42,221 nucleotides of DNA. It comes from Gammaproteobacteria bacterium (lineage in GTDB: Bacteria; Pseudomonadota; Gammaproteobacteria; Xanthomonadales; Marinicellaceae). The stretch spans positions 1 through 42,221 of the forward strand of contig JAJRQG010000091.1 of the NCBI GenBank assembly GCA_024280395.1. Reading direction: 5' to 3'. The notes beneath the pieces are model-generated. The model did no database searches. It was not told the origin of the DNA and saw only the letters and a list, made by a program, of their open reading frames with translations. A program made the translations under genes and the position numbers. Below are positions 8,359 through 41,193 of the stretch, piece after piece (positions within the stretch are counted from its first letter, which is position 1; each line of letters begins with the position of its first letter).

Positions 8359-9615
8359 ATGAATCTTACAGACCTAAAACAGTTCTCAACAAAAAAATTA
8401 ACCGAAATGGCTGTCGAAGCTGGCATTGAATTAAGAGCCAGAATACGCAAACAAGACCTCATCTTCCATATTCTAAAGAAACATGCCAAAGGAGGAGATG
8501 ATATATACGGCGGTGGCGTGCTTGAAGTACTCCCTGACGGATTTGGTTTTTTGCGATCTCCTGAAGGAAGTTATTTAGCTGGCCCTGATGATATTTATGT
8601 TTCGCCTAGTCAAATCAGAAGATTCGGTTTAAGAACTGGTGATACCATTGAAGGTAAAATTCGTCCTCCCAAGGACTCTGAAAGATATTTTGCAATGCTC
8701 AAAATTAAGACAATTAACTATGAGCCACCTGAAAATACGCGCGGTAAAATACTATTTGAAAATCTCACCCCTTTATTTGCCCAAGATCAGTTAATAATGG
8801 AACGTGGCAATGGCTCTAAAGAAGATTTAACAGCAAGAATAATCGATCTGATCTCGCCTATTGGTAAAGGACAGAGAGGATTAATTGTTTCACCTCCGAA
8901 AGCAGGTAAAACGCTAATGATGCAAAATATTGCAACCAATATTGCTTTAAACAACCCTGAAGCGAAATTATTTGTGTTGTTAATTGATGAAAGACCAGAA
9001 GAAGTCACAGAGATGCAACGCATGGTCCGTGGTGAAGTAATAGCATCAACCTTTGACGAGCCTGCCTCTCGCCATGTAATGGTTGCTGAAATGGTAATTG
9101 AACGTGCAAAACGTCTAGTTGAGCACAAACAAGATGTGATTATTCTGCTTGATTCTATCACCCGTCTAGCAAGAGCCTATAATACTGTCGCCCCCTCATC
9201 AGGAAAAGTACTGACAGGCGGAGTGGATGCTAATGCATTACAAAGACCCAAACGTTTCTTTGGTGCTGCTAGAAACATTGAAGAAGGTGGCAGCTTAACC
9301 ATTATAGCAACCGCTTTAGTAGAAACAGGTTCTAAAATGGATGAAGTGATCTTTGAAGAATTTAAAGGCACAGGTAATATGGAGATTCATTTGGATCGCC
9401 GAGTAGCCGAAAAACGTGTTTGGCCTGCGATAAATATTAATCGTTCAGGAACACGCCGTGAAGAATTAATGGTGCCTCAAGAGTTCTTAAGTAAAGCTTG
9501 GATATTGCGTAAAATTTTACATCCAATGGATGATATACAAGCCATTGAGTTTCTACTAGACAAATTAAAAGATACCAAAACCAATGAAGAATTCTTTACT
9601 TCAATGACACGATAA
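8359..9615 (+). CDS. rho: Transcription termination factor Rho
   Basis: Rho is the hexameric RNA-dependent ATPase that terminates transcription. The 418-residue length matches E. coli (419). Visible parts are the N-terminal helical domain (1-47, [18 protein letters not shown]), the RNA-binding cold-shock-like domain ([30 protein letters not shown]), the Walker A loop VSPPKAGKT, the Walker B region [17 protein letters not shown] and the Q/R-loop segments. The gene ends exactly where the convergent B2 peptidase gene ends, with no intergenic space and no visible terminator, so antisense overlap of transcripts is likely. Confidence 0.98.
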
Positions 9616-9996
9616 TTATTTCAAAACTGTAAATCTTTGATACAAATCTTCTGACTCATTTAGCGGTTCACCTTGGCATTCAACCCAAGCATGAGCCGCT
9701 AAATCGCTATTTTTTTTATTCACACCAAATTTATGTTCAGCTTCATAACCTGCAGATATAAGATATTGATACAACGCAATTGATCGGGGCAAACACTGAC
9801 AATCATTGATTGACCTACATGCCCAGAAATAACCCTTTATAATTGACTGAAGGGGTTTAATATTGACTTGAAAGGCATAAGGCTGGTGGAGTAATTCTCG
9901 ATAGCTAACAGTTTTTAATTGCTCATTTATCCAAATCAAGTGTTTTCTAGACTGTGGCAATAGTTGGAGAGCTCGGATTATGTCAGTTAATTTCAT
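9616..9996 (-). CDS. B2-type RiPP leader peptidase (transglutaminase-like fold)
   Basis: The 126-residue protein matches the lasso-peptide B2 family (Transglut_core3), cysteine proteases that remove the leader from a RiPP precursor. The catalytic Cys68 lies in DCQCLPRSIALYQYLISAGY and His102 in LAAHAWVECQGEPLN, with the typical LYQRFTVL ending. Length fits a stand-alone B2 (a fused B1 domain would add about 80 residues). It overlaps the HPr-kinase-like gene by 14 bases and is the last gene of the locus. It should cut the leader of the 53-residue precursor encoded at 10855-11016. The family assignment is strong; the substrate is inferred from position. Confidence 0.85.
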   Translation of the reverse strand: MKLTDIIRALQLLPQSRKHLIWINEQLKTVSYRELLHQPYAFQVNIKPLQSIIKGYFWACRSINDCQCLPRSIALYQYLISAGYEAEHKFGVNKKNSDLAAHAWVECQGEPLNESEDLYQRFTVLK

Positions 9997-10846
9997 TAAG
10001 CAGATTATACAACCGATCGAGGCTTTTCTTACTGTGTTGATAATTTAAACGGTAGCTTTTAACCTTAGAACTGGCTTGGTGACAAAAAGACAGGTGATTT
10101 TGCAATTCGTTTTTGGCAAATAACTTGGTGGCAACTGAGTGTTTAACAAGAGATTTAATGGCATCAAAAGTATCCATAAATGCTAACCCTGTTTCATCTT
10201 TTGATTTCTGTGCAAATAAGAAAATTGTTTCTGAAACGATGGCATCTTCTTTATACTGCTCATTAGCGACTAATTTCAACTGTGGAAAGTTAGGCAATAC
10301 TGTTAAATTTCCGTCAACAATTTTTAGTGGCAATATGTCATCTGCTAAACGTCGAACTTTTGGTTGTTTATCCATAAATTTGGCAATAGTGGACTTACCA
10401 GTTCCTGAATTACCCGTTAAAATGAAAACCTTATCATTTAAAAAAAAAGCAGAAGCATGCAAACAAAACACCTTATTCATGGCAAGATTCAAAATTAGAA
10501 CTGGGCCCAATAATAAGGTATCATCGGCACAACGAGAATTGCATTGAATTGTCTTTCTATTCAACTGATAACTTTGGTTCTTAGTTTTCAATAAATAACC
10601 TGTTGGCATAGCTGAATCAACACATAAATAATAAGCATTTTCGCCAATGTGCGCGCAATCATTGAATAGATTGGAGAAAACTGAATAATTTGGAGTTACC
10701 GTTGATGTATGAATTACACTACAGGAATTAATTTTACGAAAACTCGAAAGAGCATCAATCCTTTGATCGGACAGATACTCTGAATCAGCGATATGGTAGG
10801 TGTATTGGTCTTGACTGTCAGTCTTAGTGTTGCTTAAATACCGCAC
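9983..10846 (-). CDS. HPr-kinase-like protein of RiPP locus
   Basis: A 287-residue protein with an HPr kinase-like C-terminal domain. Features are CLHASAF (His130), the Walker A loop GNSGTGKST at about 145-153 and the acidic RLADDILPL at 167-174. The N-terminal 110 residues are not recognised. Such proteins occur in RiPP clusters; the paeninodin kinase phosphorylates the precursor peptide, so phosphorylation of a Ser in the neighbouring precursor is plausible. The start is a GTG eight bases after the precursor stop; the nearby ATG is out of frame. It overlaps the B2 gene. Histidine-protein (PTS) regulation is unlikely because no PTS gene is near. Confidence 0.75.
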   Translation of the reverse strand: MRYLSNTKTDSQDQYTYHIADSEYLSDQRIDALSSFRKINSCSVIHTSTVTPNYSVFSNLFNDCAHIGENAYYLCVDSAMPTGYLLKTKNQSYQLNRKTIQCNSRCADDTLLLGPVLILNLAMNKVFCLHASAFFLNDKVFILTGNSGTGKSTIAKFMDKQPKVRRLADDILPLKIVDGNLTVLPNFPQLKLVANEQYKEDAIVSETIFLFAQKSKDETGLAFMDTFDAIKSLVKHSVATKLFAKNELQNHLSFCHQASSKVKSYRLNYQHSKKSLDRLYNLLNEIN

Positions 10847-10854
10847 ATGTTTTC

Positions 10855-11016
10855 TTATAGGCCCAGCACTTTTTCAGATCCAGGATTACCACTGTCACCA
10901 CTGCCAAAGGATCCTCCCATTGTCACATCTCTAATATCACCCAGGCTTACAAGCTCTGGTTTTTTATAATTCTTTTTAATTTGATGTTTGGTTTGTTTTT
11001 TATTTTCTTTAATCAT
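10855..11016 (-). CDS. Lasso-type RiPP precursor peptide (53 residues)
   Basis: A short gene read on the minus strand from an ATG at 11016 to a TAA at 10857-10855, with a GGGAAG ribosome-binding site about 9 bases upstream. The leader (residues 1-33) is lysine-rich and ends YKKPELVSLGDIRDVTM, which fits the lasso leader pattern Y-x-x-P-x-L-x-x-x-G with a Thr at the -2 position. The predicted core is GGSFGSGDSGNPGSEKVLGL. It starts with Gly and has Asp at position 8, compatible with an eight-residue macrolactam ring. Directly downstream are an HPr-kinase-like gene and a B2 peptidase gene. No cyclase or PqqD-like gene is nearby, so the mature structure is uncertain. Confidence 0.8.
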   Translation of the reverse strand: MIKENKKQTKHQIKKNYKKPELVSLGDIRDVTMGGSFGSGDSGNPGSEKVLGL

Positions 11017-11043: not shown

Positions 11044-11072
11044 ATTATTAACAATTCAAAATTCGTTGTAAA
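11044..11072 (-). promoter_or_regulatory. Candidate promoter of RiPP locus
   Basis: On the minus strand, TTTACA (11072-11067) and AATAAT (11049-11044) are separated by 17 bases, and the precursor ATG lies 27 bases past the -10. The site is between pepN and the precursor gene, which share the strand, so read-through from pepN is the alternative. Confidence 0.4.
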
Positions 11073-11083
11073 GCTAAATATTG

Positions 11084-13705
11084 CTAACTTAACGCCTTAT
11101 CAACAATTTCAAATACATCTGGAGATAAATCTTCAGAATTTTTTATTCTTGTCAATTGTTGTGACATTAATTCTCTTCGAGGTTTATCAAATTTTTTCCA
11201 AGTATTAAATATTGATACCATTCTAGAAGCCACTTGTGGATTGATTTTATTTAAAGCAATCACTTGATTGGCCAAAAACTCATAGCCCTTTCCGGAATCT
11301 TGATGAAAGTGCAATAAATTACTGGAAGAAAAAGCCCCAATCAAAGAGCGAACCTTATTGGGGTTCTCTATGCTAAATGCTTTGTGTTGCATCAATTCAA
11401 CAACATTGTCTAAAGTTCCAAAGGCAGGTGAGGTCGCCTGCAAAATAAACCATTTATCCATGACTAAAGCGTTGTCTTGCCACTTTTCATAGAAATCTAC
11501 CAATAATTCATTGTATCCTTCTGCTTGATTGTGCACATAAAAACTTAAAGCTGAAATACTGTCAGTCATATTATTAGCTGCTTCATACTGTTGTTTACAT
11601 AAGCGCTTAATATCTGGATTGTCAGAACTCATTAAATAAGACAAACAAGTATTTTTAAGGCTGCGTTTTGCCACATCATTAGATTCTACTTTGTATTTCC
11701 CCTCTACAAAATTTTGATTATATACCGATAAAAATTCTACTTCTAAAGCATTGGCCAAAGCTTTTTTTACAAATTCACGTGCCTGATGAAGTGCATCGAC
11801 CTGGATGTCTTCCATTGAAACCATCAAGGTCTTTAAGTCGGGTAATGCTAAAGTTTCTGCCAATAAAGAAGGGTCTGTTTCAAAATCAGTCAATACTTGT
11901 CCAATTGCTTGAACAAAATATTTGGGACAACTCGCATCCTTTTCCTTAAGCATTGTTTCATAAACTTCTACAATTACTTGGTTTGACATAATCTGTGCGG
12001 CATTCCAGCGGTTATACGAATCAGTATCAAATTTTATCAATTGAATTAAATCATCAGTACTCTGTTTAAATTCAACATTCACAGGAGCGGAAAATCCTCT
12101 AAAAACTGAAGCAATAGGTTTTTCGGCTATGTTTTTAAAAACCAATTTATGTTTCTTTTTGGTAAGCTGGAATACTTGCTCATTATTGCCATCTTGATCC
12201 AAAGGCAGCTGATTTCCATCGTTTGAAAATAATGCCACACGCATAGGAATTAACATCGGTTGGTAATCTTTTTTATCTACATTAGCAGGGTGTTTTTGTT
12301 TGATTTTTAATGTATATTCTTGTTTTTTAGCGTTGTATTTCTCTTTGATTTTCATTCTTGGCGTACCATTTTGAGAATACCACAGTTCAAATTGATCCAA
12401 GTTTGTGTTGTTGGCATCAGCTAGGGCTTTTCTGAAATGGTCACAAGTAACTGCTTGACCATCATGGCGTTTGAAATACAAATCAACGCCTTTTCTAAAC
12501 CCTTCCTCGCCAAAAAGAGTATGGTAGATGCGCACGATTTCTGCACCTTTTTCATAAACAGTCAATGTATAAAAGTTATTGATTTCGATGAACGAATCTG
12601 GACGAATTGGATGTGACATCGGACCCGCATCTTCGGTAAACTGGAAAGCTTTAAGTGTACGTACATCTTCTATTCTTTTTACTGCTCGAGATTGCATATC
12701 TGCAGTAAATTCTTGGTCTCTAAAAACCGTTAATCCTTCTTTAAGACTAAGTTGAAACCAGTCCTGACAGGTGACACGATTGCCAGTCCAATTGTGAAAA
12801 TATTCATGGCCAATAACGGCTTCTACACCTATAAAATCCTTGTCAGTAGCTGTTTCTGGGCGGGCTAGCACATATTTAGAATTAAAAATATTCAATCCCT
12901 TATTTTCCATCGCCCCCATATTAAAATCATTGGTTGCCACAATATTGTATTGCGACAAATCATAAGCCAAGCCAAATCTTTGTTCATCCCATTTCATGGA
13001 GCGAATCAATGAATCCATGGCATATTGACAAGCATTGATGTTTTCTTCTTCTACATAAATGCGCAATGCAACATTGTTGCCTTCACTGGTCATGTAGTTT
13101 TCTTCAATATAAGACAGATTGCCCGCAACAACAGCAAATAAATAACTGGGTTTTGGATGTGGGTCAGACCATTTGGCATAATGTTTGCCATTGCTCAATG
13201 TGCTAGAATGAATCAAATTACCATTGGATAACAATACTGGATATTTATCCTTGTTGGCCACCAATGTCACCTCAAAAGGCGCCATTACATCAGGTCGATC
13301 AGGATAATAGGTGATTTTTCTAAAACCTTCTGCCTCACATTGTGTAAGAAAAAATTCACCTGATTGATAAAACCCTTCTAAAGCTTTATTTTTACTGGGA
13401 TAAATCTTGTTTTCAACCTGTAACTCAAAATCATTTGGAAGATTTTCTATTTTCAATGTTTCTTCATCGACAGAATATTCAGAAGCTTGTAACTTTCTTC
13501 CATCCAATATTATGCTCAATAAATCAAGGTTAACACCGTTTAATTCTAGTACATTGTTTGACGATTTATTCTTGTTGAATCTAATTCTGGACTTCACCAG
13601 TGTAAATGTTGGCTCAATCATCAGGGCCAAACTAACAGATTCCACCAAATAATTGGGTTTCTGGTAATCTTTTCTATAAATAACAGGGTTGTTATCGGGC
13701 TTCAT
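11084..13705 (-). CDS. pepN: Aminopeptidase N (M1 family)
   Basis: An 873-residue zinc aminopeptidase that removes N-terminal residues from peptides in the cytoplasm; E. coli PepN has 870. The exopeptidase motif FNMGAMENKGLN precedes the zinc site His300-Glu301-x-x-His304 (VIGHEYFHNWTGNRVTCQDW) and the third ligand Glu in LKEGLTVFRDQEF. The C-terminal half is the long helical domain of bacterial PepN. There is no signal peptide. It stands 67 bp upstream of the RiPP precursor gene on the same strand; a functional link is not implied. Confidence 0.97.
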   Translation of the reverse strand: MKPDNNPVIYRKDYQKPNYLVESVSLALMIEPTFTLVKSRIRFNKNKSSNNVLELNGVNLDLLSIILDGRKLQASEYSVDEETLKIENLPNDFELQVENKIYPSKNKALEGFYQSGEFFLTQCEAEGFRKITYYPDRPDVMAPFEVTLVANKDKYPVLLSNGNLIHSSTLSNGKHYAKWSDPHPKPSYLFAVVAGNLSYIEENYMTSEGNNVALRIYVEEENINACQYAMDSLIRSMKWDEQRFGLAYDLSQYNIVATNDFNMGAMENKGLNIFNSKYVLARPETATDKDFIGVEAVIGHEYFHNWTGNRVTCQDWFQLSLKEGLTVFRDQEFTADMQSRAVKRIEDVRTLKAFQFTEDAGPMSHPIRPDSFIEINNFYTLTVYEKGAEIVRIYHTLFGEEGFRKGVDLYFKRHDGQAVTCDHFRKALADANNTNLDQFELWYSQNGTPRMKIKEKYNAKKQEYTLKIKQKHPANVDKKDYQPMLIPMRVALFSNDGNQLPLDQDGNNEQVFQLTKKKHKLVFKNIAEKPIASVFRGFSAPVNVEFKQSTDDLIQLIKFDTDSYNRWNAAQIMSNQVIVEVYETMLKEKDASCPKYFVQAIGQVLTDFETDPSLLAETLALPDLKTLMVSMEDIQVDALHQAREFVKKALANALEVEFLSVYNQNFVEGKYKVESNDVAKRSLKNTCLSYLMSSDNPDIKRLCKQQYEAANNMTDSISALSFYVHNQAEGYNELLVDFYEKWQDNALVMDKWFILQATSPAFGTLDNVVELMQHKAFSIENPNKVRSLIGAFSSSNLLHFHQDSGKGYEFLANQVIALNKINPQVASRMVSIFNTWKKFDKPRRELMSQQLTRIKNSEDLSPDVFEIVDKALS

Positions 13706-18220: not shown

Positions 18221-19450
18221 CTATAAAAAAATATGTGAAAGCTTGATTCTTTTAATGAGCTTAATGCGTTCTTGGGTGATTTGCATGCCCAGACTTTCAC
18301 CTACAAAACCTCGATTCAACAATGCCTGAATATCTACTTTCTCCGCTGCTTTTAGGCATTTCTGCAAGTAGCCGGCTTGGGGATATTCTGAAAATTCTAA
18401 CCCCAATCGGCCGGTGGCATCTGCTTGGCAGGCTTGTAGGAATTTTTCGAATTGTGCGGGTTGTTGGTATGCACCTGTGCTATTGAATAGTTTATTGATG
18501 GTTGAGGCTTTGAGCTCGTAAGCTGTGTGTGAGTGTAAATGCCAGCGACAGACAATCAGGGCCAATCTCTTGTATTGAGAAGGAACTTTTAAGCGTTCAC
18601 AAACAGCTTTGACTAACGGAATTCCACCTGCTTCATGGCCCTTGTGTGATGGCAGTATTTCTTTGGGCGTTATACCTTTGCCTAAGTCATGGTTAAATAC
18701 TGCAAATGCAGTATCATTGCCCAAGTTTGCGGCTTTGTCCATTGCCATCATACAATGGATGCCTGTATCAATTTCTGGGTGCCATTTTTTGGTTTGTGGT
18801 ACGCCAAAGAGTTGATTGAATTCTGGGAACAATACTTTCAATGCGTCACAAGCTCTTAATACTTTAATAAACTCTGAGGGTGTTTTCTCATTCAAGGCTT
18901 TGCGCAGTTCTTGCCAGACTCGTTCTGCTACCAAGGCATCGACTTCGCCATTTTCAACCATTTTTTGCATCAGTTGATTGGTTTCTGTGTGAACACTAAA
19001 TCCCAAATGTGCATATCTGGCAGCAAACCTTGCGATACGTAAAATCCTCACAGGATCTTCTGCAAAGGCATCGGAAACATGATGCAATACTTTGTTTTTT
19101 AAGTCTTGTTGACCATTATATGGGTCTGTGATTTCCCCTGTTTCTGTGTCTTGTGCCATGGCATTGATGGTTAAATCGCGCCTTGCCAAGTCATCTTCGA
19201 GTGTCACCGAAACATCGGTATTGAAGGCGAAACCATGATAGCCTTTGGCTGTTTTGCGTTCGGTTCTTGCTAATGCATGTTCATCTTGGGTTGTGGGGTG
19301 CAAAAAAACAGGAAAGTCTTTGCCAATGGGTCGAAATCCTTTGTCCATCATTTGTTGTGGCGTAGCTCCAACCACTACATAATCACGGTCTTTAATATTT
19401 AAACCCAACAACTGATCACGCACAGCACCACCGACTAAATATATTTTCAT
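18221..19450 (-). CDS. cca: CCA tRNA nucleotidyltransferase
   Basis: Cca adds or repairs the 3' CCA end of tRNAs without a template. From the ATG at 19450 the protein begins MKIYLVGGAVRDQLLG; the nucleotidyltransferase carboxylates are Asp21 and Asp23 (KDRDYVVVG). RRDLTINAMAQD, DPYNGQQDL and the RILRIARFAARY helix follow. A C-terminal HD region (FNHDLGKG) matches the multifunctional gammaproteobacterial form. A start at 19459 is possible. The start codon overlaps the slt stop (ATGA). At about 409 residues it matches E. coli Cca (412). Confidence 0.96.
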   Translation of the reverse strand: MKIYLVGGAVRDQLLGLNIKDRDYVVVGATPQQMMDKGFRPIGKDFPVFLHPTTQDEHALARTERKTAKGYHGFAFNTDVSVTLEDDLARRDLTINAMAQDTETGEITDPYNGQQDLKNKVLHHVSDAFAEDPVRILRIARFAARYAHLGFSVHTETNQLMQKMVENGEVDALVAERVWQELRKALNEKTPSEFIKVLRACDALKVLFPEFNQLFGVPQTKKWHPEIDTGIHCMMAMDKAANLGNDTAFAVFNHDLGKGITPKEILPSHKGHEAGGIPLVKAVCERLKVPSQYKRLALIVCRWHLHSHTAYELKASTINKLFNSTGAYQQPAQFEKFLQACQADATGRLGLEFSEYPQAGYLQKCLKAAEKVDIQALLNRGFVGESLGMQITQERIKLIKRIKLSHIFL

Positions 19451-21402
19451 TGGTGACATCCTACGCTAGTGGTTTGATTGGGAATGGTATTGTTTGGCCA
19501 TTGTTTCATGGGAGCTCCATCCACTGGAAAGGTTGGCATCCAATAACTGATTCTTCGGGGTTTTTTATTAATCAACCAATCATAGATAGTGATATTGCTT
19601 AAGATTTTGGTGATGTATCCACGGGTCTCTCGATAAGGAATGGTTTCCGCCCATATATCAGGAGAAGTAGGAAAGCCATGTAACCAATCATCTGCTTTGG
19701 TTTCGCCTGCATTATAGGATGACAAAGCCAATAATGGATGATTGTTGAAACGATCAAATAATTGTCTTTGGTAGAAAATGCCCAGTTGCAAATTAAAATC
19801 GGCATCGTGTAATTGTGGTTTCCCCCAATATTTTACGCCCAATTTTTTACTCAGCCGTTTTGCAGTGGCATCAATTAACTGCATTAAACCCCTGGCATCA
19901 GCCGATGAAATGGCATCGGTTTGCCAAGCACTTTCTTGGGTGATTATCGACATAATCCATTGCGGCAACAAATTGTGTTTATTGGCCAATTGAGTGATTT
20001 CATTTTTGTACGCCAATGGATAACGCATTTCGTAGTTTTTCCACAATCCCAATGCTCCCATAATGGCAGAAACTTTATTGTACCAGCCTTTTTGGTATGC
20101 CAAATCTGCCAAGGCTCTGCGCTCACCAATATTGAGCTTTTGGTAGCCAATTATCCATTCTTTTCGGGCCTCGGTAATCATATCCAAGGCAAACAATTCA
20201 AAGGCATTTCCCAAATGCTCTGGCAGTTTTACAATCAATGTTGCAGCAATGTCTTCTGTACAGATTTCATAGGGCAGATTCATATGGTCTGCTGCCAAAA
20301 ACCCATGATAGCTGGTTTTTAACGCCAATGTTGAGAAGATTGATTTTGCTTGTTTAGCTTTGCCTATTTTTGCATAGGCCCGCGCCAACCAATACTGCCA
20401 GCTGTCTTTGTTGCGTTGAAAATCCGGCATAGCCTTAATAACTTTCACAACAGCTTTCCAATTTTGGTGGTACAAATGATAGCGCACTTCCCATGCATTG
20501 ATTTGTGAATCGTGTTGTGCTGGTGGCAAGGCATTCATCGCAGTGATGGTAAAGGGCAAATAATCCACCGCCGCAAACAGAGCATTGGTCCTTTCAACTT
20601 TTGCTATTTGTTTGGCCGTAAAAGAATAATGCTTTTTCAATCCTGGCCAAATTTTGTAAAATTGTTCAGGCTGTTTTTGCGCCAACTTTTTAGACATGAT
20701 ATAAACCAATTCACGATTTTGTGTATTGTCTTGCCATTTTACCGATTTTTTCAATCCAATCATTGGATCTGACATCAGCTGTTGTGCATGTTTGACCCAG
20801 ACAGGTTGCTTTTTCATCTGGGCTGCTAAATATCGGGCAGTTGATGAGTTATTGACCTTGAAAGTGAGTTTAATTCTTTCCGCCAGTAATTTGTCGGTTA
20901 AATGCCCTTGAGATTTCCACCACTTGAACACAGGATTACAAGCGTCGGGCAAGGACAAACCATTCATCCAAGTATCGGTGATAGCCTGTGGCAAGCCTTT
21001 GAAGTCTTTGGTTTCGATGCGCGCTTGTAAATACCAGCAATGTTTTTTTTGTGAGCCTTTGTTGTTTTTATAACGCGCTAAATAATCTTTCCATTGACCT
21101 TGTTTGCCCAATTCATAGGTTAACATTTCATCCAAGGTTTTCACCAAAGGACTATCAGGATGTTTGGTTTGAAAGGTTTTTATTTCGACAATCGGCAGTT
21201 GGTTTATTTTGGATTTTAATAACGCATAATCCAGATAATGGTTTAAACGGTAATTGGGCTGTTGCTGTTGTGCTTGTTTAACCGCGACTTCATCTCCTTT
21301 GAGTGCTTTGGCATAGGCTTTTTTGAACACAGTCTGCTCAACAGTTAAGGCACTGGCATTAACTGCAAGCAATAAACACATCCATAATAAGGGTTTAATC
21401 AA
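19447..21402 (-). CDS. slt: Soluble lytic murein transglycosylase
   Basis: Slt cleaves peptidoglycan glycan strands with formation of 1,6-anhydromuramic ends in the periplasm. The 651-residue protein has a signal peptide (1-18, ending NASA), a long alpha-superhelical U domain, and a C-terminal lysozyme-like domain. The catalytic Glu490 lies in IMSIITQESAWQTDAISSAD, followed by ARGLMQLIDATAK and LALSSYNAGE. Length matches Slt70 (645). The start is a TTG whose last bases overlap the stop of the HD gene (TTGA); the only nearby ATG would destroy the signal peptide. Confidence 0.94.
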   Translation of the reverse strand: MIKPLLWMCLLLAVNASALTVEQTVFKKAYAKALKGDEVAVKQAQQQQPNYRLNHYLDYALLKSKINQLPIVEIKTFQTKHPDSPLVKTLDEMLTYELGKQGQWKDYLARYKNNKGSQKKHCWYLQARIETKDFKGLPQAITDTWMNGLSLPDACNPVFKWWKSQGHLTDKLLAERIKLTFKVNNSSTARYLAAQMKKQPVWVKHAQQLMSDPMIGLKKSVKWQDNTQNRELVYIMSKKLAQKQPEQFYKIWPGLKKHYSFTAKQIAKVERTNALFAAVDYLPFTITAMNALPPAQHDSQINAWEVRYHLYHQNWKAVVKVIKAMPDFQRNKDSWQYWLARAYAKIGKAKQAKSIFSTLALKTSYHGFLAADHMNLPYEICTEDIAATLIVKLPEHLGNAFELFALDMITEARKEWIIGYQKLNIGERRALADLAYQKGWYNKVSAIMGALGLWKNYEMRYPLAYKNEITQLANKHNLLPQWIMSIITQESAWQTDAISSADARGLMQLIDATAKRLSKKLGVKYWGKPQLHDADFNLQLGIFYQRQLFDRFNNHPLLALSSYNAGETKADDWLHGFPTSPDIWAETIPYRETRGYITKILSNITIYDWLINKKPRRISYWMPTFPVDGAPMKQWPNNTIPNQTTSVGCHQ

Positions 21403-39930: not shown

Positions 39931-41193
39931 CTAACGGTTTAGGTTTTTTCTTTTTCGGCGCGGCTTTTTTTTTTGAAAAATCAGTTCTTTTTGCTTAGTC
40001 TTAGACTGTGTTTGGATATGTGTCCACCAATCTCCCAATAATTCTAGCTCTTCACTTTCTTGCTTTCTTAAAATCAAGAAATCATAAGCAGCTCTAAAAC
40101 GTTGATGCTCTAGGGTAAAAAATACCTTTTTCCCAATTGTTGTCTTAAATCTGAATTGCAACAACCAAATATTGCGAATGCCAATTTGTACAATTCTAGG
40201 AATGGCCAGGGTTTTTCTGGTGATGTGAAATACATCATTGGATGCCTTATTAATGGCATCGTACTCGGACAATCCTGAATTGAGGTATTTATCGGTAAAA
40301 GCAACCGACATTGGCCACAAGAAACACGAAAAAAGAAAGATTGGCGTAACACTTTTGCCTGATTTAATCCGAGAATCCGTACTGGTCAATGCTCTTTGAA
40401 TAAATTCGTAATGATCGTTGTTTTTACTGATTTCTTTACTGGCATGCGGGAAAATCAAAGAGAACAACATCATTTCATTCATCAATTGGAAAGCCGCCAA
40501 AGCATTGCCACAATGAAACAACTTAACCAACTCATCAAACAACCTCGCCATAGAAACATTGGATAAGGTTTTGTATTGTTTTAACATCGCTTGCTTGGTT
40601 TGGTCTGATATTGTCAAACCCAGTTTTGCTTCAAACCTTATGGCACGAATCATTCGCACCGGATCCTCGATTATTCTTTTGCTGTCATCACCAATAAATT
40701 TTAACCGATGTGCCTTAATGTCATCATATCCTTCACAATAATCCAAAATATTGCCATTTTCAATATCCAGATACAAAGCATTGCAGGTAAAATCTCGACG
40801 AATGGCATCCTGCTCAATCGTTCCATACACATTGTCCTTAATAATGTGCCCTTGTTTGACCACTCTTTCGCCTTCTTGTGCAACGCCTCTAAATGTGGCA
40901 ACTTCGTACATTTGATGGTTATGATAAACATGTGCCAGACGGAAACGCCGACCAATTAATCGACAGTATCTCTGAAACACGTCTTTAATTTGATCAGGGG
41001 TGGCATTGGTGGCAATGTCAAAATCCTTTGGGTGCTTGCCCAACAACAAATCACGCACCGCACCACCCACAATATAAGCTTGATAACCATGCTCTATAAG
41101 TTTGGTTATGATGGCTTGTGCTGAAGGGGATATTTCATCGGTACTTACACCATGCTGTGATTGGTTATAAGTTTGAAGTTTGATATTAGACAA
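39931..41193 (-). CDS. pcnB: Poly(A) polymerase I
   Basis: PcnB adds poly(A) tails to RNA and promotes decay. The 420-residue protein has GYQAYIVGGAVRDLLLGKHPKDFDIATNATPDQI (nucleotidyltransferase Asp-x-Asp in DFD), RRDFTCNALYLDIENG, and RMIRAIRFEAKLG. It belongs to the same superfamily as the Cca encoded at 18221. The C-terminus is strongly basic (KKPRRKRKN), typical of PcnB. The start is a TTG; no ATG lies near. The stop overlaps the open folK frame. Confidence 0.95.
   Translation of the reverse strand: MSNIKLQTYNQSQHGVSTDEISPSAQAIITKLIEHGYQAYIVGGAVRDLLLGKHPKDFDIATNATPDQIKDVFQRYCRLIGRRFRLAHVYHNHQMYEVATFRGVAQEGERVVKQGHIIKDNVYGTIEQDAIRRDFTCNALYLDIENGNILDYCEGYDDIKAHRLKFIGDDSKRIIEDPVRMIRAIRFEAKLGLTISDQTKQAMLKQYKTLSNVSMARLFDELVKLFHCGNALAAFQLMNEMMLFSLIFPHASKEISKNNDHYEFIQRALTSTDSRIKSGKSVTPIFLFSCFLWPMSVAFTDKYLNSGLSEYDAINKASNDVFHITRKTLAIPRIVQIGIRNIWLLQFRFKTTIGKKVFFTLEHQRFRAAYDFLILRKQESEELELLGDWWTHIQTQSKTKQKELIFQKKKPRRKRKNLNR
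39964..39974 (-). promoter_or_regulatory. Slippery A10 run with A_AAA_AAG heptamer in pcnB
   Basis: On the minus strand, ten A residues are followed by G. In the pcnB frame this reads CAA AAA AAA AAG, so the last seven bases form the A_AAA_AAG heptamer known from dnaX. A -1 slip there leads directly into the folK frame. Transcriptional slippage on the A10 run would have a similar effect. Confidence 0.45.

Follow-up and report, generated by a model that had tools for sequence, protein, structure and literature searches.

The three-gene set A-K-B2 found between pepN and rho in the window (the whole stretch of 42,221 nucleotides analysed here) is, with a probability that we put at about 0.8, one part of a lasso-peptide pathway whose cyclase and recognition protein (B1) are encoded elsewhere on the chromosome, the pieces being derived from a compact cluster that was dismantled. 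In the genome sequences the five genes are conserved and co-occur, have separate homes in the window's genus (g1) and lie side by side in relatives. Most likely, this three-piece pathway has been kept across most of g1 and, with partly different neighbours, in a second genus of the family Marinicellaceae (g4). Lasso peptides are usually mined from genomes by the clustering of their genes; in g1 the lasso genes are not contiguous but occupy three loci, contiguity being usual for such genes though outside the chemical definition of the class.

The locus between pepN and rho

The features of the locus, which belongs to a genome of 3.77 Mb in 158 contigs, are listed in Table 1. The original prediction, made from the sequence alone, described a 53-codon gene with a lasso-style leader, a kinase-like gene beginning 8 bases after it and then a B2 peptidase, flanked by pepN and rho and unaccompanied by any cyclase or PqqD-like gene in the window. 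These coordinates and this gene order hold: K starts 8 bases past the stop codon of A and overlaps B2 by 14 bases, and a profile search of the whole genome returned no Asn_synthase or PqqD match on the window's contig. The flanking genes were named by eye and we take them to be pepN and rho; rho is not kept as a neighbour of the locus in relatives.

Table 1. Features of the A-K-B2 locus and its flanks (positions in the window).
Feature	Position	Strand	Basis or remark
A, lasso precursor, 53 aa	10855-11016	-	NCBIfam model and family alignment
Leader of A	10918-11016	-	
Core of A (GGSFGSGDSGNPGSEKVLGL)	10858-10917	-	
Stop codon of A	10855-10857	-	
K, putative precursor kinase of HPr-kinase/PEPCK fold, 287 aa	9983-10846	-	Conserved residues, fold of the model
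B2, leader peptidase, transglutaminase-like cysteine protease, 126 aa (Cys68, His102)	9616-9996	-	Profiles
Promoter-like site, TTTACA-17-AATAAT	11044-11072	-	pepN-A gap; consensus scan
pepN, housekeeping neighbour	11084-13705	-	A-K-B2 sits behind pepN in g1
rho	8359-9615	+	Other flank, convergent with B2

Precursor A scores 22.6 bits against the NCBIfam model lasso_leader_L3 (cut-off 19), a model matched at E 0.1 or better by all 11 family precursors. Across the 11 aligned rows, the leader is invariant at Y(-17), P(-14), L(-12), G(-8), D(-7), R(-5), D(-4), V(-3), T(-2) and M(-1), and the core at G1, G2, S3, G5, G7, D8, S9 and G10. Gly1 and Asp8, which had been noted as placed for an eight-residue ring, are thus constant in the family. 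Position 4 of the core is Pro in 10 of the 11 rows and Phe in the window's A, the only row without Pro4 and one whose tail deviates as well. None of the 11 cores ends in Ser.

Peptidase B2 lies above cut-off in two profile families (NCBIfam lasso_biosyn_B2, 56.8 bits, cut-off 33; Pfam Transglut_core3, 63.8 bits, cut-off 26) and is itself the sole Transglut_core3 match of the genome. The Cys68 and His102 singled out by the original prediction are invariant in 12 of 12 aligned sequences. A search with the structure model of B2 gave no match among solved structures at E 0.001 or better. The B2 frames of g4 (L076, L083) stop about 8 residues past the HAWVE motif, without the C-terminal stretch of g1.

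For kinase K, HprK-related models match far below cut-off only (NCBIfam HprK_rel_A, 17.8 bits, cut-off 200). All 18 kinases compared, which come from the family and from other phyla, keep H130, the P-loop (147-153) and D169-D170 unchanged. The AlphaFold model (pLDDT 90.3, 18 sequences in the alignment) is nearest to solved PEP carboxykinases (best E 3.7e-6) and then HPr kinases (best E 9.9e-5), with modest TM-scores of 0.24-0.41 by query length among the matches listed; a kinase-family sequence search of solved structures gave P-loop matches only. As modelled, K has an HPr-kinase-like fold, and it carries the H, GxGKS and DD residues of lasso precursor kinases.

Upstream of A, the pattern TTTAC(A/T)-16/17-(A/C)ATAAT occurs 56-62 bases before the start in all nine g1 pepN-A gaps read (of 11 genomes); it was written after the gaps had been viewed, and the nine gaps are not independent. 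Dinucleotide shuffles contain it in at most 0.2% of cases each, and in a consensus scan of the region promoter-like sites were no more numerous than in shuffles.

Cyclase and B1 candidates elsewhere in the genome

One of two explanations offered beforehand for the missing genes was that they lie elsewhere, and a full-genome search for cyclases and PqqD-like proteins had been proposed. That search gave five Asn_synthase matches and one PqqD match, and yielded one candidate for each role, both on other contigs. The candidate cyclase (C54:12703-14379, 559 residues) lacks an N-terminal Cys and carries SGGMDS. Its match to lasso cyclase models exceeds chance. Against the lasso cyclase model it scores 107.7 bits (cut-off 525) and against asparagine synthase 118.6 bits (cut-off 267); that both scores are below cut-off and the second slightly higher counts against our reading. 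For comparison, a cyclase segment taken from a compact outgroup cluster scores 64.6 and 85.4 bits on these two models, respectively. In the cyclase tree (row asn_L039, in a wrong frame, was disregarded) the family cyclases form one clade (SH-aLRT 100), with the cyclases of clusters and apart from four other asparagine synthases. The candidate B1, the genome's only PqqD match (C9:52755-52949), has lasso_PqqD_Strm as its best NCBIfam match (46.3 bits, cut-off 70), a model on which the B1 of a compact outgroup cluster scores 60.9 bits.

The remaining Asn_synthase matches were rejected as cyclases: C128 is an ordinary enzyme with an N-terminal Cys (421 bits to asn_synth_AEB, cut-off 267), C149 is a short fragment, and C141 and C48 are other enzymes, by appearance QueC and GMP synthase.

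Co-occurrence in Marinicellaceae

The family sample comprised 33 genomes (11 of g1, one of g2, 18 of g3 and three of g4). K occurs in 13 of them (g1 10, g4 3), a strong cyclase match (E 1e-70 or better) in 14 (g1 11, g4 3), PqqD in 12 (g1 10, g4 2, both by the protein of the window's genome and by Pfam) and Transglut_core3 in 13 (g1 9, g4 3, g3 1); matches to the last in G032 and G016 fall in frames of 528 and 734 residues and, by length, are not B2. In this sample the three loci are confined to g1 and g4, the 19 genomes of the other two genera being without them save for weak cyclase matches in two (G001, G009). Among 15 g3 pepN loci inspected, a LysR-like gene (by eye) adjoins pepN in 13, the other two loci being unreadable. 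All 13 genomes that carry A and K have a strong cyclase match. The lasso-cyclase-like gene and the single PqqD-like gene on other contigs both track A-K-B2 across genera, in support of the prediction's first explanation. It had added that a cyclase elsewhere would make this an ordinary split lasso locus; the cyclase candidate was found, and "ordinary" fits poorly, there being three conserved homes and not one displaced gene.

Conservation of the precursor in relatives, another check proposed in advance, is borne out by a precursor of the A type upstream of K in 13 of the 13 family genomes with K. Over core positions 1-10, seven distinct g1 genes give pN/pS 0.14 (pS 0.67, pN 0.09) and three g4 genes give pN 0 at pS 0.50. 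The constant precursor upstream of K, the invariant Gly1 and Asp8 and the low core pN/pS together argue that the A locus is more than a chance reading frame.

A few draft genomes show gaps, which count against our reading: G028 and G030 yielded no PqqD, G027 neither K nor B2, and G021, where the locus ends at a contig edge, no B2. The assembly of G027 (L156, placed in g1) is incomplete or mixed, since its rho is only 67% identical and no close pepN is present. Such gaps, the dispersal of the genes, the early end of B2 in g4 and the deviant core of the window's A are what would be expected if these were relics of a former lasso cluster and the peptide were no longer made in this species. We nevertheless consider such decay very unlikely, as all frames are open, active-site residues are kept, the promoter-like site is conserved and the core shows the low pN/pS given above.

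Compact clusters outside the family

Profile models were built from members of Marinicellaceae and then extended over outgroups. When 398 genomes of the order were searched with the alignment model, 39 proved to have a precursor, of which 13 belong to the family and 26 to outgroups; the stretches of 20 of these 26 were read. A cyclase match was present in every one of the 20, precursor and cyclase matches being weaker in the distant L236-L241, and eight contain the complete series C-A-K-B2-B1 (L222-L226, L232-L234). In five of the eight (L222, L223, L232, L233, L234) an FKBP gene faces B1; the precursor of L234, which is on the same contig as L091, was read by eye. The compact clusters and g1 have the same precursor type and the same five genes, and five of the clusters share the FKBP neighbour of B1; the genes are contiguous there, whereas in g1 they lie in three places. 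In the family no cyclase was seen near A, either on the window's contig or within about 8 kb to each side in L075, L079 and L083.

A pattern scan of GTDB genomes confirmed 26 loci from 109 matched stretches, 12 in the family and 14 in others labelled Lysobacterales, Rhodanobacteraceae, Xanthomonadaceae, Oceanospirillales, Contendobacter, Deltaproteobacteria, Anaerolineales or Chloroflexi, and Acidobacteriota or Thermoanaerobaculia. A cyclase match accompanies 13 of these 14 named non-family loci (L096 is without); four of the 14 are on contigs that also supplied some of the 20 outgroup stretches. The precursor pattern missed L091, L098 and L121, where precursors were found by eye, and reported none for L095. 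Most outgroup precursors read have Ser or Thr at core position 3 and Asp or Glu at position 8, the absence of other letters at the latter not being independent evidence because the pattern demanded D or E near it. Four genomes of f5 (L222, L223, L232, L233) share the core GPTPGVGESG, which has both Thr3 in place of Ser3 and Glu8 in place of Asp8.

These data bear on the second explanation offered by the original prediction, a minimal RiPP pathway in which the core is only cut and phosphorylated and never ringed, the distant cyclase and PqqD serving other purposes. Such a pathway would account for A, K and B2 alone being adjacent and for a cyclase candidate under the lasso cyclase cut-off. We judge it highly improbable and this part of the prediction unsupported, in view of Gly1 and Asp8 that never vary in the family, the strong cyclase in every genome with A and K, the cyclase beside the same precursor type in outgroup stretches and the exchange in f5 of Asp8 for Glu8, which could also be ringed (the pattern, as said, allowing only these two).

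Past the FKBP gene facing B1 in L222, L223, L232 and L233 lie genes that by eye resemble those of an ABC ATPase and a permease, preceded in three of the four by a GntR-like gene; the ATPase and permease are a possible exporter. One stretch (L231, genome G090) holds two precursor-cyclase pairs in opposite orientation, about 7 kb apart.

Homes of the three pieces

In g1, B1 comes after three genes: one for an ECF sigma factor, a small one that matches no Pfam model and probably encodes the anti-sigma factor, and DUF3106. The gap between DUF3106 and B1 is 24-62 bases in nine of the 10 g1 loci (one was not measured), and B1 faces FKBP, by eye, in nine of 10, the tenth being cut. Two FKBP proteins, one from the window's genome and one from L222, exceed the cut-off of 100 bits for the NCBIfam model BamJ, with 103.7 and 100.3 bits, respectively. 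The cyclase stands directly behind rlpA, with a gap of -1 to 2 bases in all nine g1 loci measured, two further ones being cut at contig ends. A-K-B2 is directly behind pepN.

The g4 arrangement differs from that of g1. In G031 DUF3106 and B1 overlap by 4 bases and A-K-B2 is about 10 kb from pepN; no FKBP gene was seen beside the g4 B1 within the 15 kb read, and the cyclase has neighbours other than the rlpA of g1.

That the separateness of the three loci is an artefact of draft assemblies, the window's own being in 158 contigs, has a negligible chance of being true, given that from genome to genome each locus keeps conserved housekeeping neighbours of its own, that no cyclase or PqqD appears in the 31 kb and 10.8 kb that the window shows to either side of A, and that in G026 the matches to the three loci are on three contigs, where they begin at 53, 62 and 158 kb.

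Possible history of the pathway

The outgroup C-A-K-B2-B1 clusters and the FKBP gene facing B1 point to a compact cluster that was taken apart and whose pieces were retained. The ancestral state would have been C-A-K-B2-B1 facing an FKBP gene; in g1, B1 would still face FKBP, now behind the ECF sigma operon, with A-K-B2 settled behind pepN under its own promoter-like site and the cyclase directly behind rlpA. As FKBP faces B1 both in compact clusters and in g1, the B1 locus is suggested to be the old cluster site. The breakup may have proceeded in more than one step, since in g4 B1 is without FKBP, the cyclase has another home and A-K-B2 is some distance off pepN.

The trees give a mixed picture. 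Those of B1 and K are poorly resolved (p-AU 0.142 and 0.195 for a grouping of family, f5 and f10), so that they neither establish nor reject an origin shared with the outgroup clusters that adjoin FKBP, and the g4 B1 falls outside the g1 B1 clade. The rho tree joins g1 with g3 at 100/100, on two distant outgroup rows only, one of them from the doubtful G027; the pepN tree is ambiguous (g1 with g3, support 65; g1 with g4, p-AU 0.646; g3 with g4, p-AU 0.461). Because the rho and pepN trees disagree, the history may have been either that g3 lost all three loci jointly or that they were gained once, before g1 and g4. These conflicts, the g4 arrangement and the deviation of the window's core were counted against our reading.

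Predicted biosynthesis and relation to known systems

In lasso biosynthesis, as described in two reports, B1 binds the leader, boosts the kinase and helps B2, after which the cyclase closes the ring (PMC10368454; PMC9266682). For the present genes we infer corresponding enzymatic steps, a phosphorylation site and a product. B1 (on C9) would bind the leader at Y(-17), P(-14) and L(-12) and raise the activity of K on the linear precursor, which K would phosphorylate, most likely at core Ser3; B2, aided by B1, would recognise Thr(-2) and cut after Met(-1); and the cyclase (on C54) would activate Asp8 with ATP and then close the Gly1-Asp8 ring around the tail. The calculated [M+H]+ is 1821.861 for the linear core, 1803.851 for the ringed form and 1883.817 for the ringed form bearing a single phosphate.

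The nearest likeness is to the bsf cluster of Bradymonas sediminis (BsfA, BsfK, BsfB1, BsfB2, BsfC), (PMC10368454). Bsf and the g1 system share the YxxPxL leader, a predicted Gly1-Asp8 ring, core Ser3, an HPr-kinase-like kinase with H...GxGKS...DD, discrete B1 and B2 and the lack of a C-terminal Ser. They differ in that the bsf genes form a single cluster, which also includes a D transporter and a nucleotidyltransferase gene, whereas the g1 system occupies three loci, and in leader position -2, which is Ile in bsf and Thr in the window's A. BsfK uses Ser3, and its H, K, S, D and D residues are important (PMC10368454); on our own reading H130, the P-loop and D169-D170 of K correspond to them. 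The bsf product also went undetected in that work (PMC10368454).

The paeninodin-type kinases PadeK and ThcoK resemble K in being HPr-kinase-like, in taking the linear precursor as substrate and in their conserved His-Lys-Asp-Asp, but they phosphorylate a C-terminal Ser (PMC9266682), which no family core has. Ser3, found in 11 of 11 cores, would be the likely carrier of the phosphate mark, given that BsfK uses it and that every core lacks a C-terminal Ser; the equally conserved Ser9 may be an alternative site.

Needed genes far from the precursor are reported for other peptides, namely the PAD tailoring gene of citrulassin (PMC9266682) and unclustered protease genes of lanthipeptides (PMC8960859). 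In those cases it is an accessory or final step that is remote, whereas here it is the class-defining cyclase and the recognition protein. According to the RRE-Finder report, of almost 8,000 proteins that match its discrete lasso-RRE model best, only about 4,000 co-occur with the peptidase and cyclase, and the remainder are treated as possible false positives (PMC7470986). On our reading of the present case, some lone RRE genes can belong to a dispersed yet conserved pathway, and the homes described above give concrete places in which to search. Literature searches, which covered few subscription journals and are thus weak evidence of novelty, returned no recognised account of a dispersed lasso pathway, and with the same coverage GGSPG was not found together with "lasso".

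If our reading is true, these genera would offer a natural experiment on the role of a lasso peptide whose genes have ceased to travel together and whose core hardly varies. The near-fixed core and the settling of the genes in envelope and stress operons (the cyclase follows rlpA; B1 stands after an ECF sigma factor gene and next to one for an FKBP/BamJ-like protein) invite the tentative and, on balance, doubtful idea that the peptide is a housekeeping phospho-lasso, an internal signal or envelope factor, and not a weapon against competitors.

Other features of the window

Two frames of the window (18221-19459 and 39931-41193) resemble, by eye, relatives of tRNA-nucleotidyltransferase or poly(A)-polymerase. 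At its start (9-1804), four small frames resemble, again by eye, subunits of a Na+/H+ antiporter of the Mrp/Mnh type, a set that runs past the window edge.
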